Positions 28,739-64,000 of a DNA stretch of 64,000 nucleotides are shown here, one piece after another. Source of the DNA: Rhizophlyctis rosea (Eukaryota; Chytridiomycota; Chytridiomycetes; Rhizophlyctidales; Rhizophlyctidaceae); contig JADGJC010000011.1 of NCBI GenBank assembly GCA_027596075.1, positions 173,936 to 237,935 of the forward strand, in the 5' to 3' direction. Position 1 is the first letter of the stretch. Every line of letters begins with the position of its first letter. The translations under genes and the position numbers were made by a program. The notes beneath the pieces were generated by a model. The model ran no database searches, was not told the origin of the DNA, and worked only from the letters and a program-made list of their open reading frames with translations.

Positions 28739-30854
28739 GGCGATTTTGGCAATTGAGGCCTTCTTACACACCTCGCGCTATCGAGGCATATCGAGGTTGG
28801 GTAAAGTGTGCGGTGGGTGTAGATCTGGCTGATGTGATAGCGTAAACAGTTGAGGTTCTGACAAAGTGGGCATTGCACCGAGAGTTTTCATGACAAGCTG
28901 CTCACCTAGAAGAGACCGTGGGACTCCTAGGTGCCGACACCTTGTTAGCGTAATTCGGACGACACGGTATGCGGACATGGTAAGGGTTTTGCTGTTTTGG
29001 CAATATGATAGTAGTTGGTAAACAAAGAAGGGGGACGAGACAGCACAATGCAACGTTGACGAGTAGTTGTGGCTTGGATTATGTGACGCTGTGGCTAAAT
29101 GTGGCTGAAATGGCTTGCCACACCGTCAAGCCACAGATTGACACATATCCCCGGCCCCCTCCCAACAGCCTGGCCTCACTTCTTTGTCCGCTGCTTTTCA
29201 TCTGCGGAACACATTCAAGCATTAGATAGCTTTTCCATTCGCGCATTTTCATCCTCGACTATCCATCCACACGTTCCATCCATCCGTTCCATCCATCCTA
29301 GTACTAGCCATCCAAGTACCACCCGCTCTAGTACTCTCCGTCCACCCGGACCACTATCGACATGAGGACATACCAAAGCTAAGTATCCAAAGTCATTTCC
29401 GTTTTTCAAGGGCAGCTGGGGAAGTCTAGTGCACCTGCCACCCCATCTATTGGGACTAAGTGCCGAAGGCATTGCAGATGACGGAAGAGTGGGCGCGTCA
29501 GAATTGACGGTCCCGCCTCTGGATGAGTTTGTAATGGCGGACGCGGGGGTCGCACATTCTGAACCTGGGTTTAGATATTGGATAGCTCGCGGGGAGATAC
29601 CGAAGTGACACTTTACCAACTATTCCAAGAACAGATACTAACAACCCTTTTGCATTCCAGCCTTAGGAACCTCCTGCAAACGTCCTGGGCACGACCAGTC
29701 AAATAACTGCGCCCTGGGATGTGGAAATCAGAGCAAGCGACCGTAACACTCGGTGGCCACTTCGGTGGACAATAATACTCGCCTTTTTGGCCTTCCTGGT
29801 TCCGACTTGACGACCTCGTGCACAATTGCAATGATCACAGTCACCGAAGTGCCACCGCGTCGGAGCTGAGTCTACCGACGCACAGGATAAAACGCGGAGG
29901 AGCATGGGATTGCAATCCATACCTGGGCGGGTTGCAATTCCATAGCTGTGCTCGTGGTGAGCTTTGGTGAACGAATAGTCAAATCGGGCTGAACTTTGCA
30001 GGTGCGTATCTCAGGCGGGCTGATGCTGTCTTCGGAGCATGGCTGTGGTAGAGGAGTGCTGGGCGGCATGTTTGAGATGTCCTTTTTGAGACACGAGACC
30101 CACCTCCTGCGGGCTGTTCCCGGGGGGGATGCGGTTTGTTCTGGTACATGGTGCGGGTGGCAGCTTTGTCTGCGCCGGTCGTGGAAGGAGCCGGCATGCT
30201 GTTTAGTCACGAGTCGTAACGCATGCTCGTCACCAATGGTTTCACGTCGTTTCTTGCGTTCTGTTTTTGTGTTCTGTTATTACCAGTTCGTTTCCTTAGA
30301 CAATAGACATGTTCGAAATATCGAAAGGGCTGGCTTGTATTAATATATGCTGTAAAGCTAAATGTTTGGTCTTAAGGCTGGCTGCTCAAATATATTGTTT
30401 TGAACTCAATGGTCCCTTCGTTTCCCGATATTGCTGTATAAAGTTCACGGATTCAAAGCCATGGTTTCGCTCAGTGTGTTGTAGCAAGCTACTGTTCTCA
30501 TCCATACCTAATTTCACATAGAAAGAATACGTCAGAGGCTCACCATGTCCCTTCATCAACAATCAAACCCTCATGCTCCACTAGAGGTGACCCATCACTT
30601 CCGGCAGCGCACATCCGACAAAATGGAAACGCAGCACTCGTCCGTCATCAACGCAAAACAGTCGCGTACATCTCCGCACGCAACAAACCTCCCCACGCAC
30701 CAAGTCCGACTCCATCCGCCAACATCCCCTCAACGAAACTTCAAGTCTTCACGAACCTCCCCAAAAAACAAATAAACTATTAAATTATCTAAACACAAAA
30801 CACCATCTACAAAACACATCACACCAAGAAAAGTCCTCATAAAAAACCTTCCGC
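28739..30854. other. Long intergenic region with one interrupted ORF
   Basis: 29099-29608 is one frame of 170 codons interrupted only by a TGA at 29363-29365. The first half resembles a mitochondrial presequence (FFVRCFSSAEHIQALDSFSI) and the second reads SFPFFKGSWGSLVHLPPHLL to FRYWIARGEIPK. The opposite strand is also open over most of it, so this may be chance. No other structure is supported between 29609 and 30854. Confidence 0.3.
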
Positions 30855-48273: not shown

Positions 48274-49102
48274 CGCGCCCCGGGGGGGGGCGCCCCCGGC
48301 GCCGGGCCCGCGGGGCGGGGCCCGGGCCCCGGGGGGGGGGGGGGGGCCGGCGGGGAGGAGCGATGTGGGGGTGGAAGGGGAGCGGGAGGTGGAGGGTGAG
48401 GNNNNNNNNNNNNNNNNNNNNNNNNNNNNNNNNNNNNNNNNNNNNNNNNNNNNNNNNNNNNNNNNNNNNNNNNNNNNNNNNNNNNNNNNNNNNNNNNNNN
48501 NNNNNNNNNNNNNNNNNNNNNNNNNNNNNNNNNNNNNNNNNNNNNNNNNNNNNNNNNNNNNNNNNNNNNNNNNNNNNNNNNNNNNNNNNNNNNNNNNNNN
48601 NNNNNNNNNNNNNNNNNNNNNNNNNNNNNNNNNNNNNNNNNNNNNNNNNNNNNNNNNNNNNNNNNNNNNNNNNNNNNNNNNNNNNNNNNNNNNNNNNNNN
48701 NNNNNNNNNNNNNNNNNNNNNNNNNNNNNNNNNNNNNNNNNNNNNNNNNNNNNNNNNNNNNNNNNNNNNNNNNNNNNNNNNNNNNNNNNNNNNNNNNNNN
48801 NNNNNNNNNNNNNNNNNNNNNNNNNNNNNNNNNNNNNNNNNNNNNNNNNNNNNNNNNNNNNNNNNNNNNNNNNNNNNNNNNNNNNNNNNNNNNNNNNNNN
48901 NNNNNNNNNNNNNNNNNNNNNNNNNNNNNNNNNNNNNNNNNNNNNNNNNNNNNNNNNNNNNNNNNNNNNNNNNNNNNNNNNNNNNNNNNNNNNNNNNNNN
49001 NNNNNNNNNNNNNNNNNNNNNNNNNNNNNNNNNNNNNNNNNNNNNNNNNNNNNNNNNNNNNNNNNNNNNNNNNNNNNNNNNNNNNNNNNNNNNNNNNNNN
49101 NN
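48274..49102. other. Assembly gap (N, 48402-49102) with artefact-like G/C homopolymers on its left edge
   Basis: The 701 N bases are preceded by runs such as GGGGGGGGGG, GGGCCCGCGGGG and GGGGGGGGGGGGGG at 48280-48360. This composition is unlike the rest of the window. It looks like low-quality polymerase slippage or an unresolved GC-rich repeat rather than real sequence. Confidence 0.9.
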
Positions 49103-58774: not shown

Positions 58775-61240
58775 ATGGCAGCTTTACCTCATCCCACTCA
58801 CGGAGGCTTGACCACCTCCTCCATACACCGAAGCTCCCACTACGAAGATTCGTTACTCAATTCCCCATTCTACTTTGCAAATCCAGAAGAGCCCCTTCCA
58901 CCGCCATCGTCGGCATCGCACGCTCCACCTCCAACTTCCTCATCATCTTCTTCAGTGATACCCGGTGGAGCGCCCGGAGGCGTCGCACCGAATCTGATCT
59001 TCAAACGTGAAGCGCTGGACGCATCCCACACATCCGCCACGGAAGGCGGTTGCGACAGACACGCACATCAGTTCTCGCAGCATTCGCAGTCTCACAACCA
59101 TTACAATCATTACGGTCATCAACATAACCATAACTCGTCACATCACAACAACTCACACCACCATCACGGGCACCATCAGCATCAGAAAGCGACGTCCCAG
59201 CAACCTCCTCACTACTCCTCGGTATTTGAGCAAACGAATTCTGGCACGCCCAGCGCACCGATTTTCAGGGGACAGGCACCACAGGAATTTGGCGCGATGT
59301 ACAGCCCAACAATGGGTGAGTCTCACGGATCTTCTGCATTGCAATTCTCCGGAGAGCCCGCCTCTTGTTTACAACGCAATGCGCACGGAATTCACATGTA
59401 AATAAACCATCATCTCAGAAAATATGTCAGGACTGACCGTGTTATACGACTCCATCATCTACTACGCGACTGATGCGAAAAACAGCTTCTCACAAGGCGC
59501 AGAGCAAGAGGCCTTCGAGCGACTGGAACAGATTGTCAGGACGATCTCCGTTTTGCGAGACTTCAAAAACAAATGTGATATGGTATGTTTGGTGAATATG
59601 AAAGCGGATTTCCATTTCATCCGTAGCTGACTTGGTGCCACAGGCTGCTACTCGAAGCAGCTCACTACCGCACTCATTGCCGCAACTTACACCTGTACCT
59701 GAAGCACCGATCGAAGAAGGCAAAAGCAGGGTACGCGTTATAATAACATGATTTCGCTGCCATTGACCTCGTGTGCTGATTTAATGACATTCTACAGAAA
59801 CGTGCACGAACCGTGAAGGAAGAAGGAGCAACTCAAAGTAGACGTCACAGCATCGTCAATCCCACGTCCCCCATCAATACAGACCTACCACCTGAACCGT
59901 CACAACTATCACCCTTTGACGATGAAGGACCGGGACCGGGATTGCTCTTACCGATGTGGACGATCGACCCAGAACTATGCGCTCAATTGGACGAGGTGTT
60001 CTTCGCGTTCCTCGCAAAAGTCTGTTCGGATCTGGAAATCACGGATGAACAAGGAGAGAAAATGTAAGTGACATAAAATCCCAAAAGCACTTTTTCGGTC
60101 TTCTACATTTTATCTGACCGGAACATTTGCATCTAACATCCATTACCCCACCCATTCCAGCCACCAAACCCTCATCGCCCGCAAAATGTCCAAAATAACC
60201 GAGAGCCCCGAATTCCACCCCTTCAAGTTCCGCATCCGCTCCTTCACCAACGCCTTCCGGTCCGAGCTCTACCGCTCCGGCTTCACCGAAGAAATGATCC
60301 CCGAACGCAAGGTCAAGCAATACCTATGGCAGCAGCGCTACATTTCTCGATTCAACGAGGACGGGAGGAAAGCTAAGAGTAAAGGGAGTCATGTTTGGGT
60401 GGTGGAGGCAAGGAAGACTGCAGATGGCGGGTGGATTTTTAAGGAGTTTGAGAGACGGATTACGGGGAATGAGCCGAATCCTGTTGCGTATGTTGGGGTG
60501 AAGTATGTTTATGAGCCGAAGGTTTATGATCCGCAGATTAAGAGTGAGTAGGGAGCTGTTTTGTTTTTGGCGTGCTGAAGTTGCGCGCTGTGCTGCATGA
60601 GTACAATCTTTCAAGTATGGCTAATCCACAATGCCGCACCTATCCATATGTGTTCTCAGGTCCGAAAGTCGTGTTCCACTCTCCATGGCTTCCAAACTGG
60701 TTACGCTGGGAAGACAACATCCTCGCGGGCATCCCCCTCCCAGACGCCAAGAACTGCTCCATAACCGTCGTGGCAAGCTACTTCCACGGAGAAACAAGTG
60801 AGTTCCCAATCCTTCTTTTCGCCCCACACTCTGCCCCCTTTCCTCACCGACTAACAAACCACAACAGGCTTCCGCCTCGAAAAAACCTTTTTCCTAACAA
60901 TCACGACCCTCCCCCCACCCAACAACACCCACCACCCACTCGACCAGGACATCGACGACCACCGTCGACGCAAGAGCGAAGATATGGGGAACGGAGGAGG
61001 ACCACCTGGAAGTGTGGGTGGTAATGCGGCTGCGCAGGCTGTGAGTATGTATGCTGCGGCTTCGGCGGCAGCGGCGGGAGGAGGTCCGGGGAGGTATCCG
61101 CCTTATGGGCCGGTTGGGAGTGTTCGTCATGGTGGGTTGGTGAGTAGTTGGGGTTTGGCGTGTTGAGCACTGTTGAGTCGAATGAGCAAGGCATATTGAC
61201 TGTTGCCCTGCTCTTTTGCCCTTAGGTCGGCCATCACTGA
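58775..61240 (+). CDS. MedA (Medusa)-type developmental transcription regulator
   Basis: Eight exons (58775-59315, 59419-59582, 59644-59730, 59798-60063, 60161-60543, 60660-60797, 60868-61139, 61226-61240), all in phase, give 621 residues from MAALPHPTHGG. The first exon is Ser/Pro-rich and strikingly His/Asn-rich around residues 100-140. ENMSGLTVLYDSIIYYATDA starts an ordered region; KRARTVKEEG is a likely nuclear signal. The conserved core reads ARKMSKITESPEFHPFKFRI, RSFTNAFRSELYRSGFTEEM, KVKQYLWQQRYISRFNEDGR, KSKGSHVWVVEARK and GWIFKEFERRITGNEP. It ends SPWLPNWLRWEDNILAGIPL and DAKNCSITVVASYF. This matches MedA/Acr1/Ren1 of filamentous fungi, which control conidiation, adhesion and morphogenesis. 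The last exon encodes only VGHH. Confidence 0.85.
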
Positions 61241-61678
61241 CCTAACCGACGGCCAAAGGAAGTCCAGCGGAAACGGAAACACGAAAGAACAAGTAAATGA
61301 TACCCTTGAGCGTAACGACATCAAGATACCAATTTCTTTTCTCTTTTTCTCATCCAACCACCCCTTTTCGCTTTGTGCGGCATTTGGGACACTGCTTTCC
61401 CTCTATTCTTGTTCTCTAGTTTGCTATTTTGATACCCCTAATGCCCCATTTCGGATGTGCTTGTTTGTTGGGCTCTGGGGACTTGTACATAAAAGAGTTT
61501 TTCTTACATATCTTATGCTGATATTGGTGCTTATTGTGTTGTCGGATGTATGACCCAGAGTGATTCATGCTGCTATTAGCATATCATGTACCGCGCAATG
61601 TGCCTTTGCTTTCAATTGACATTGTGATTGATGGATACATAGAAATAAGGATGTGTACAATGGGGAGGGATATCACAT
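61241..61678. other. 3' flank of MedA gene
   Basis: T-rich sequence after the stop, probably 3' UTR. No gene. Confidence 0.35.
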
Positions 61679-61809
61679 GAGGACTAATCTATTGTCTTGC
61701 GAGTCCTCGTCGACTTCCTTGATCCCCTAATGAAAGGGGACAAGGAAAGGGGAAGCGGTTAGTAGCTGGATGGGCAGGATAGTGACGTGTGTCACTGCCC
61801 AACTGCTAC
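61679..61809. repeat. Three consecutive strong hairpins
   Basis: Hairpin 1: GAGGACT (61679-61685) with AGTCCTC (61702-61708). Hairpin 2: TTCCTTG and CCCCT (61715-61728) with AGGGG and CAAGGAA (61735-61747). Hairpin 3: GTAGC (61762), GGGCA (61772), GTGAC (61782) pairing with GTCAC (61791), TGCCC (61796) and GCTAC (61805). They directly precede the tandem structured array. Confidence 0.75.
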
Positions 61810-61916
61810 CTACACATCCCCATTAACGAAGACGCAAGCAATCAACACCTACCTCCGAAGAACCTTGAGGGGGCAGCGTAGCTATGGGGAAGAAGAAATC
61901 AAACGGGTTAGAAGTC

Positions 61917-62695
61917 CCTACCTTAGCCGTCCCACACTGGCGGGAGGGAAGATATAGCGACGTTGGCGAACGTCACTTACTCCAAAAAGGAGTATAACCA
62001 GCGCTACCCGTAGGTCGTCGCGACATGGTACCACCCCTTTGAACCGCCGCACAGGTTGGGTGTTCTTGCCGGTCTTGCACAACGAGCCGGGAGGGGTGGG
62101 CATAGCGATGCCAGAGACATCACTCACCCCAAAAAGGAGTGTGACCAGCGACCATCCCCGCGAATGGAGATGCGCCGACTGGTGCCACCCCTTCAACCGC
62201 CGGACAGGTTGGTCGTTCTTGCCGAGTCTTGCACAACGAGTCGGGAAGGCAGGGCGTGGAGATCCGTCGGCATTCCAAAAAGGAAGGATAACCAGCGACC
62301 GTCACCCGGCGGTGACGCATCGACTGGTGCCACCCCTTGTAACCGCCGAGCGGGTTGGTCAAGTCTTGCCGGGCCTTGCACAACAAGGCGGGAAGGGCGG
62401 GCAAAGCAAACGTTCGCACACTACCACTGAACGTTTGCCCATTCCAAAAAGGAATGTAACCAGCGACCGTCACCCGGTGGTGACGCATCGACTGGTGCCG
62501 CCCTTGAACCACCGCACAGGTTGGTCGACGGAACTTGCACAACCAGACGAGAAGGGAGGGCGTAGCGAAACGTTCGCACACTACCACTGAACGTTTGCTC
62601 ATTCCAAATAAGAATGTAACCAGCGGCCACCTCCCGGCGGAGGTGAACCGACTGGTGCCACCCCTGCAACGTACAGGTTGGTCGCCCGTTATCGC
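61917..62695. repeat. Tandem array of five ~150-bp structured units with compensating stems
   Basis: Units start near 61955, 62103, 62257, 62404 and 62563, aligned on TAGCGA or a variant; spacing is 147-159 bp. Each unit has four pieces. (A) A hairpin after TAGCGA. (B) A stem around AAAAA such as ATTCCaaaaaGGAAT. (C) ACCAGCG with an inner hairpin and CGACTGGTGCCACCCC. (D) CAGGTTGGTCG and CTTGCACAAC flanked by CCGG/CCGA-type arms. Inner stem C is CTAC/GTAG, CATC/GATG, GTCACC/GGTGAC (twice) and ACCTCC/GGAGGT in the five units; stem B is ACTCC/GGAGT in one and ATTCC/GGAAT in another. Complementarity is thus kept while sequence changes. CTTGAGGGGGCA flanks the array at 61864 and 62798. Function unknown: structured RNA, or mobile double-hairpin elements. 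Confidence 0.8.
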
Positions 62696-63421
62696 CGCCG
62701 CTCGGTCCGCCGTATCGCCCCGTTCGCTCCTTGGGTCGTGGGTCTTGGATATCCCATGAGAGACATGGTGAGATCGGTACACCCGCTTGATAGCCAGCTT
62801 GAGGGGGCAAACTCACCGAAAGCCGACAGGGAAGGCAACGTGCCACTTGTGTGTTTGCCGATAACCGCAGGAGTCGAAACCGAAGGTGAAGGCATTGGAC
62901 GTGCAGGCGAAGTTGGTGTTGAGGTCGGTGGGGGAAGTGTGGGAAAGAAGAGGAGGGAAGTTGTGAGAAGACCTTCGCCATCTCCTCTGTCCCACCTTGA
63001 GAATTCATGGCGACATGAATTTACGTAATCTCTATGACTGTGCCAAGCGGCTTGCTCACCGTGCCTGATACTAGTATGACTGTGCCGGGGTCATTTACGT
63101 AAAAAGTCTCAATGCGTTCAAAGGGATGAGTAGTGTTCCCATGGACCATGATGGCTGATGATTGTTTCAATGAATTTTGTCTGTTGATGCTGGCTTTGTG
63201 AATACCTCAACTGCTAAATGAATAAGCGTATCATTATCTGTTAGCATTCAACAACCAATATGATATCCCCCAGAAGCACGAAAGGAGCGCCCCAATCGTC
63301 ATGCTGTCAACACTTGAATTCTAATATTCAATACACATACACAAAAAAGCACAGAAAGACACAGAAAAGGGGACCTAAACAAAACACAGAAAACAAAACT
63401 GCTGCCCACCAAAACATTTCA
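62696..63421. other. Intergenic; short direct repeats, no gene
   Basis: ATGACTGTGCC occurs at about 63034 and 63075, and ATTTACGTAA at about 63018 and 63093, bracketing a 90-bp interval. Otherwise nothing is supported. Confidence 0.35.
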
Positions 63422-64000
63422 TCACCGCCCTCCAACCTCAACCTCTCCCCACCTGCCCCCAACATCCTTGAAGGCATCACTCCCATACTCCCCCCTTTCC
63501 CCACCAGTACCCCCACCCCTCTCCTCAACCTTCCTCATCTCAACATACTTGACAACATTCCTAAAATGCTTTACCACTTCCGCCGCAACCGGCTTGCCCC
63601 TGCCCGCCTTGCTCGCTGCCCCGCTCAGCACGTCATCATCAAACAGAGAAGCGGTGGACGCGGTAGGGGATAGAATCCCTGCGGGACGGAAGGCGTGCGG
63701 AATGAGGTTTGTTGAAGAGGTTTGGGAATCCGTGGAGGATGGAAGGGGAATGGTGTCGGAGGTGGAGAGGTTGGTTTGAACTAGTTCGATGAGATTGTTG
63801 AGGTATTTTACAGCAATCTGGGTGAATGTATGACGTCAGTAAGTAATCTTTCTACGCTTGCTGTTTTTTTTGCAGATCAAGGAGCGAATTGCAAACCCAC
63901 CGCATCATTCCTCCTCTCGAAAAACCAAACATATCTCTCCAAAATCTCTACAAAAAGCTCCACATTTACACTCCGATCCATTACACTATCCGCGACCTTC
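63422..64000 (-). CDS. VPS35: VPS35 retromer subunit, C-terminal part (5' end outside window)
   Basis: Exons 63901 to beyond 64000, and 63422-63817, joined in phase 0. The first reads KVADSVMDRSVNVELFVEIL and ERYVWFFERRNDA; the second starts IAVKYLNNLIELVQTN. This matches the last helical repeats of VPS35, where LFVEILNRYLYFYE and the following NDAV...LNxLI helix are typical. A Ser/Thr/Pro-rich linker follows (about 50 residues, longer than in yeast or animals). Then GKPVAAEVVKHFRNVVKYVE, equivalent to the conserved HFxNTLxHLRLRR end. The Gly-rich tail is atypical. VPS35 is the core of the retromer coat that returns cargo receptors from endosomes. Stop at 63422. Confidence 0.85.

Follow-up and report, generated by a model that had tools for sequence, protein, structure and literature searches.

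Repeat-built scaffold long noncoding RNAs are exemplified by the Xist repeats, roX and NORAD. Structured units also occur in tandem in satellite DNAs with self-cleaving ribozymes and in Neurospora VS RNA, and fungal TPP riboswitches hide splice sites. To our knowledge, eukaryotes have few noncoding RNA folds supported by covariation beyond the classic families. For Xist RepA, the cited section of a review states that conserved structure is not supported by covariation (PMC8250186), and the double-hairpin elements of fungi are described in the cited part of another article as mobile repeats of mitochondrial DNA (PMC7218506).

Here we describe a tandem array in Rhizophlyctis rosea whose sequence suggests a noncoding RNA gene not described before. 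The array lies in a window of 64,000 nucleotides, the whole stretch of DNA analysed, which belongs to a contig of 264,940 bases (JADGJC010000011.1) in an assembly of 44.1 Mb and 634 contigs. Five diverged units are arranged head-to-tail at positions 61945–62688, in an intergenic region flanked by two gene 3′ ends (Table 1), and repeat detection confirmed the position that an initial annotation had given. The conserved cores are spaced, start to start, by 147, 147, 168 and 160 bp. GC content is 58–63% per unit, with the units as cut for folding, versus about 50% across the window. Ungapped repeat blocks are 63–85% identical to the reference copy, and mean column identity in the full five-unit alignment is 70%. 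The short blocks that had been reported as shared by the units occur in three to five of them: ACCAGCG in 5/5 (by eye and by pattern), CGACTGGTGCC in four and CAGGTTGGTCG in three (both by eye), and CTTGCACAAC in four (by eye and by pattern).

On the minus strand, a VPS35 gene lies upstream of the array, with about 0.73 kb between the end of its coding frame and the array. The VPS35 exon that reaches into the window matches PF03635 in Pfam (E 7.2e-51), and the last exon is recognized as a reading frame only. One exon of the convergent gene on the opposite side was compared with Pfam, without a match. The locus looks like the space between two ordinary genes of a probable fungal nuclear genome. 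Elsewhere in the window, a run of N at about 48400–49100, either a gap or withheld sequence, gives unknown residues in reading frames.

Table 1. Features of the array and its surroundings, in window coordinates.
Feature	Position	Strand	Basis
Unit u1, last in predicted transcript order: H0, HA, P1 (mismatch), altered P2, P3, P4	61945..62090	-	Helices placed letter by letter; 126 bits with model R1 (by construction)
Unit u2: H0 (one mismatch), HA, P1–P4	62092..62244	-	Model R1 and helix placement
Unit u3: P2 and P3 retained (P3 with one mismatch), two mismatches in P1, loss of P4	62247..62391	-	Model R1 and helix placement
Unit u4: complete P1–P4, weakened H0; sole unit with firm P1 in the long-transcript prediction	62394..62550	-	Model R1, helix placement, pairing probabilities
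Unit u5, first in predicted transcript order: P1–P4 present, H0 absent, HA short	62553..62688	-	Model R1 and helix placement
u4 hairpin P2 (base ACCAG..CTGGT, upper stem covarying)	62459..62496	-	Helix placement, coordinates counted on sequence
u4 hairpin P3 (CATTCC TTTTT GGAATG)	62440..62456	-	Helix placement, coordinates counted on sequence
u4 hairpin P4	62405..62439	-	Helix placement, coordinates counted on sequence
89-bp module with two GGCACAGTCAT and ATTACGTAA; putative promoter for the array transcript	63001..63089	-	Repeat match and motif counts
GGCACAGTCAT, copy closer to the array	63034..63044	-	Sequence reading, genome count
GGCACAGTCAT, second copy	63076..63086	-	Sequence reading, genome count
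Intron-like stretch, 99 nt: GTAAGT (in u1, P3/P4 border), CTAAC, CATAG	61882..61980	-	Signal scan
Intron-like stretch, 126 nt: GTAGGT, TACTAAC, pyrimidine tract, CATTAG (alternative start 61813)	61727..61852	-	Signal scan
VPS35 gene, 3′ part, same strand as the array RNA; extends past the window	63422..64000	-	Reading frames; Pfam match to neighbouring exon
Convergent protein gene, intron-bearing	58775..61166	+	Start and exons by eye

Helices were read on the minus strand, and a covariance model (R1) was built from the five units, which score 113–153 bits with it. H0 bridges two units. In u1–u3 it consists of CCG, N, CUNG, a UUGUG loop, CAAG, N and CGG; it is weaker in u4 and absent from u5, its stem has a mismatch in u1, u2 and u4, and it includes one covarying pair (G-C in u1, A-U in u2, C-G in u3). 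The UUGUG loop is invariant in all four units having H0. HA is made of AACC, 8 nt and GGUU, and is shorter in u5. P1, formed by AGGGGUGGC and a near-complement at the unit end, encloses P2–P4. The long hairpin P2 has a base, ACCAG/CUGGU, that is invariant in u2–u5; above it come a bulge and an upper stem that covaries. Two or three bases, UA in most cases, link P2 to P3, which comprises six pairs and a UUUUU loop (UAUUU in u5); P4 adjoins P3 directly and is followed by two bases and then by P1 again. Such short spacing would allow P1/P2 and P3/P4 to stack, perhaps as a four-way junction.

The stem variants of the initial annotation are real and are given here as read on the minus strand. The inner stem of P2 reads CACCTCC/GGAGGTG in u5, CGTCACC/GGTGACG in u3 and u4, and CATCTCC/GGGGATG in u2. 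The arms of P3 are CATTCC/GGAATG in u4, CATTCT/GGAATG in u5, CACTCC/GGGGTG in u2, TACTCC/GGAGTA in u1 and CCTTCC/GGAATG in u3, and P4 occurs in three kinds, found in u1, in u2 and in u4/u5. The inner P2 of u1 is altered and P4 of u3 is lost; u1 and u3 are partly decayed, with one helix lost or altered each. By eye, a contact between HA and the P2 loop (CGGC/GCCG in u3, CGGT/ACCG in u4) matches in two of the five units and is not claimed here.

Pairing probabilities were calculated by folding a 1.5-kb minus-strand transcript. They are at least 0.94 for P2 of u2–u5 and for P4 of u1, u2, u4 and u5, while P3 reaches at least 0.99 in u4 and u5, 0.91 in u1, 0.31 in u2 and 0.13 in u3. In these predictions P1 is the weakest helix of the unit (0.56 in u5 and 0.00–0.02 in u1–u3), and only u4 has high values throughout: 0.96 for P1, 0.96 for P2, 1.0 for P3 and 0.99 for P4. 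HA of u5, the only HA tested, has a probability of 0.03.

The sample for covariation consists of five paralogous units of one locus, and the cited part of the review warns that misalignment and pseudogenes may mislead covariation tests (PMC8250186). In a plain MAFFT alignment the 42 named pairs show pairing in 91.0% of cells. Changes on both sides occur in 10 pairs, against a mean of 5.4 when the 3′ letters of this alignment were redealt, and 0/500 shuffles reached 10; further pair types number 24 versus 20.7 and were reached in 42 of the same 500. When partners were slid by 1–3 columns, 1–5 pairs had both-side changes. RNAalifold compared with 200 column-shuffled alignments per strand gave z scores of -4.7 (minus) and -6.1 (plus).

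The null that we trust most is a tree null on the uncurated alignment, in which the substitutions inferred for each branch were replayed at random columns and the structure was re-predicted each time. Against it, the 13 compensatory columns found on either strand were reached in 0/400 replicates (means 4.7 minus and 4.4 plus, maxima 11 and 12). On the minus strand, 55 double changes preserve pairing and 24 break it, with null means of 13.6 and 15.1, and the energy z scores are -6.1 (minus) and -5.3 (plus). With the curated alignment there are 49 pairing-preserving double changes and no breaking ones (null means 5.3 and 19.4), and 13 compensatory columns versus a mean of 2.2 and a maximum of 8, with 0/2000 reaching 13, but this test is inflated because curation omits decayed helices, and it is unfit as the main test. 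Both tree nulls model substitutions without conversion tracts or template switches, and hairpin-spanning events could alter both arms together. The P2 common to u3 and u4 and the P4 common to u4 and u5 suggest conversion-type exchange between units. However, one P2 position steps from A-U (u3, u4) through G·U (u2) to G-C (u5), which is not a block event and speaks against an origin by conversion or template switching. The array has covariation beyond a phylogenetic null, as is expected of a conserved structured RNA. Four controls place the compensating stem changes first noticed in these tandem units of about 150 bp beyond chance, and the covariation, within five local copies only, is significant.

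The minus strand is likely to be the RNA strand, because G·U wobbles favour it. The hand-curated minus-strand helices contain 227 cells, of which 205 are Watson-Crick, 15 G·U, 2 A·C and 5 other mismatches. Counted by stem column, 10 have G·U versus one with A·C on the minus strand (sign test about 0.012 two-sided, by hand), a count with some residual bias, since the drawing of the helices accepted G·U pairs on this strand. With the automatic structure the trend is the same, at 25 G·U and 7 A·C cells for the minus strand versus 12 and 9 for the plus strand with its own structure. The alignment energy is -88.5 on the minus versus -79.5 on the plus strand, and the whole-array energy -353.9 versus -322.1. 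For single units the minus strand is lower in u1, u2, u4 and u5, with the reverse in u3 (-59.5 minus, -62.9 plus). Both the covariation and this strand bias of wobble pairs support the initial proposal of an RNA fold under selection.

No second array was found in the 44.1-Mb assembly by DNA searches with the whole array and with u4 or by five patterns that tolerated variable gaps or as many as 3 mismatches, a scope that strongly diverged copies could escape. The patterns returned the array and 13 isolated matches, all of which were scanned with the model and reached 8.2 bits at best, versus 113–153 for the units. When cmsearch was run with R1 on 20 fetched stretches, including all 13 isolated matches, the array itself was the only strong match. 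The flank at 61170–61925 yielded no second copy, and the flank at 62690–63430 one further match elsewhere, which is the 89-bp module. In these DNA and pattern searches, copies occur only at this locus, the outcome that the initial annotation had listed as counting against its proposal.

Rfam gave no match in the window at the gathering score (riboswitch, ribozyme, snRNA, snoRNA and tRNA families). Up to E 5, region 61600–63000 gave six matches, none reaching the gathering score; the best, Lambda_thermo over P2 of u3, has E 0.073 and 21 bits, with 50 required. ARAGORN found no tRNA in the window, a distant BLASTN search of phages and plasmids was empty, and exact patterns (two for each set) had no match in bacterial/archaeal and viral contigs. 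Among the open-licence PMC papers found by searching, none has a title or abstract that describes such an array. Two RNA classes were tried and rejected. Sm sites are of the AUUUUUG type, and C/D snoRNAs carry box C (UGAUGA) and box D (CUGA). For a spliced leader or snRNA, the Sm-type ATTTTTG and AATTTTTGG are absent from the minus strand of 61501–63100; for a C/D snoRNA, both box motifs are absent from the same stretch.

On contig C16 (L040 2010–2081, minus strand), a P3-like hairpin, CCTTCCTTTTTGGATGG, is followed about 53 nt on by GTTCTGCAAGTACCG; the two resemble P3 and H0, and their spacing is about right. As a candidate diverged unit, this pair (TACCCTTCCTTTTTGGATGGGC, and GTTCTGCAAGTACCG about 53 nt further on) has BLAST E values of 0.033 and 4.8 and model scores of 5.3 and 4.2 bits, and it lies on the strand opposite to the copy of the shared module on that contig. 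Window positions 29678–29760 match repeats of C16 (AAGCGACCGTAACACTCGGTGGCCAC; 83% over 87 bp). At about 67.8–73 kb, near the second module copy, C16 holds several pairs of 29–155-bp repeats, such as AAGTACGNACCAGCTGCCCC..GAGGGGTGCTTTGC, and by eye no gene was identified there past an upstream helicase-like frame.

The module upstream of the array is 85% identical to C16:70805–70892 and partially similar to C321:14367. Its two copies of GGCACAGTCAT lie 42 bp apart, 0.35–0.4 kb upstream of the array. Genome-wide, GGCACAGTCAT occurs 314 times versus 7 for the reversed control; about 21 copies are expected (by hand), an excess of about 15-fold. Aligned at 30 places, the first in contig order, the motif has a weak flank preference, GTGGCACAGTCATNNAA, and no longer similarity. 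Leaving out both module copies and the second copy on C16, 27 of the 30 places were compared for the direction of their longest flanking frame: 20 have it directed away from the motif and 7 towards it (two-sided probability about 0.02, by hand). This comparison was picked after the table had been seen. Frame lengths around the motif, compared in three paired tests, gave 0.75, 0.06 and 0.41, none significant. We take GGCACAGTCAT, with reservation, as a promoter-type motif because the longest frames point away from it, as at promoters. On the minus side, the closest target would be the array. The motif is perhaps a transcription-factor site at gene starts. Papers listed for the letters of the motif are, judged by the titles shown, unrelated work on mouse and cells. 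The idea that the module serves as a promoter of RNA genes only was dropped, the motif being genome-wide; a scan of 20 of the 30 motif loci with Rfam gave two tRNAs in total, and L040 gave none.

Two intron-like stretches lie downstream of the array on the minus strand (Table 1). When the region was dinucleotide-shuffled 400 times, 7 shuffles contained one or more such signals and none contained two, odds that are flattering, the definition having been tightened after a looser scan had revealed both. The same scan found no intron-like signal on the plus strand of the downstream region, and in the whole window it found one on the plus strand and five on the minus strand, three of these five in this region. 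At the P3/P4 border, u1 has GTAAGT, within paired bases, and u2 has GTGAGT, both resembling 5′ splice sites. Since the 5′ site of the first stretch is inside u1, splicing would cut this unit and leave its fold incomplete. By eye, a long hairpin (GTAGC..TGGGCAGTGAC..GTCACTATCCTGCCCA..GCTAC) occupies about 61755–61812 on the minus strand and adjoins TACTAAC in the second stretch.

We give about even chances to a minus-strand gene, separate from its neighbours, for a noncoding RNA in which five copies of a repeated structured domain would form a binding platform for a partner. The case for a separate gene is drawn from the covariation, the wobble bias, the lower energy of the minus strand, the high pairing probabilities of most P2 and P4 hairpins, the promoter-type motif upstream and the two intron-like signals downstream; the 160-bp spacing, which breaks a common reading frame, was counted in favour of a noncoding product. 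Transcription may start near the module at 63001–63089, and the transcript, probably spliced, would pass through the five units and then through two spliceosomal introns. The repeated three-hairpin domain, P2–P4 closed by P1, would be the platform, and its five copies could provide avidity for one protein or ribonucleoprotein partner, as in other scaffold RNAs built from repeats. Counted against this reading are the prediction of P1 in a long transcript only for u4 and in part for u5, the 24 pairing-breaking double changes of the uncurated alignment, the lost helices of u1 and u3, and the lack of AATAAA on the minus strand of 61501–63100, as well as ATG frames of 186 and 160 aa in the spliced model. 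We consider it improbable that these units represent a new eukaryotic class of RNA sensor or switch whose folding controls splicing of the downstream introns; the module would then fold around the P3/P4 border with its consensus 5′ splice sites (u1, u2), and a ligand or protein would tune this folding, on which the splicing of the introns of the host noncoding RNA would depend.

The rival explanations rank in the order small-RNA precursor, cis element, DNA-level origin, ribozyme and coding repeat. A precursor cut into small structured RNAs of about 150 nt, one per unit and with the H0 linkers as processing sites, is favoured by the position of H0 between units, its invariant loop and its one covarying pair, and it has a real if minor chance of being correct; however, H0 is mismatched in three units, the units are widely divergent and two have lost a helix, and neither C/D or Sm motifs nor an Rfam match accompany them. 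Somewhat less probable is an action in cis, with the VPS35 transcript carrying the array as a structured 3′ tail, or with the array as a transcription barrier between the convergent genes. Its strand, its distance from the VPS35 coding frame and its place between two gene 3′ ends are consistent with this, but a promoter-type module between VPS35 and the array would be needless for a simple 3′ tail. Unlikely, in our judgement, is selection or mutation at the DNA level with no RNA function, whether through mobile or recombinogenic palindromes or through the correction of hairpins by template switching. In its favour the structure is significant on both strands, the column shuffles favour the plus strand even more, and P4 changes as a block between u1/u2 and u4/u5. 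However, the wobble columns favour one strand (10 versus 1, in helices that admitted G·U on the minus strand), the stepwise P2 position is not a block event, and the DNA and pattern searches found no other copies in the assembly.

The compact, multi-helix tandem units with conserved unpaired blocks could also be an undescribed self-cleaving ribozyme of the kind borne by satellite DNAs. This is very unlikely: the array is single and short, and region 61600–63000 has no Rfam ribozyme match even up to E 5. A protein-coding array with a repeat peptide is hardly credible. Open frames of 230 aa (minus, 62120–62812), 210 aa (plus, 61958–62590) and 199 aa (minus, 62421–63020) do cross the array, in addition to the two ATG frames of the spliced model, but the 160-bp step from u4 to u5 shifts the frame. 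Codon scores of six ORFs, each in its open frame, are -0.039 to -0.091, versus -0.042 to 0.161 for held-out real frames, with 12/13 above -0.039; trained on 13 frames of the locus, these scores are a weak measure, and equally high values are reached by some wrong frames of real genes. The array is probably noncoding.

Five diverged copies side by side amount to an evolutionary experiment within one locus, in which the parts of the fold that are kept can be told from those that drift, and the model is directly usable on related genomes and RNA-seq. Like the mitochondrial double-hairpin elements, the array is GC-rich, hairpin-forming and fungal; unlike them, it is a single nuclear locus of units of about 150 bp, located between VPS35 and another intron-bearing gene rather than in mitochondrial DNA, and the many dispersed copies typical of these elements were not found by DNA searches and patterns. 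With no other copy found in 44.1 Mb by these searches and with nuclear-type neighbours, the alternative of mobile GC-rich double hairpins offered by the initial annotation is not supported. Ribozyme-bearing satellites and Neurospora VS RNA have structured units in tandem as well, but the array has only five copies and lacks a known ribozyme motif. The GTAAGT that u1 carries in a paired stretch at its P3/P4 border recalls the TPP riboswitches; differences are the five units and the absence of an Rfam riboswitch match and of a known metabolic host gene. Xist, roX and NORAD share with the array transcript, which is here predicted from sequence, the use of tandem copies of one domain, whereas the domain of the array is a covarying multi-hairpin fold.
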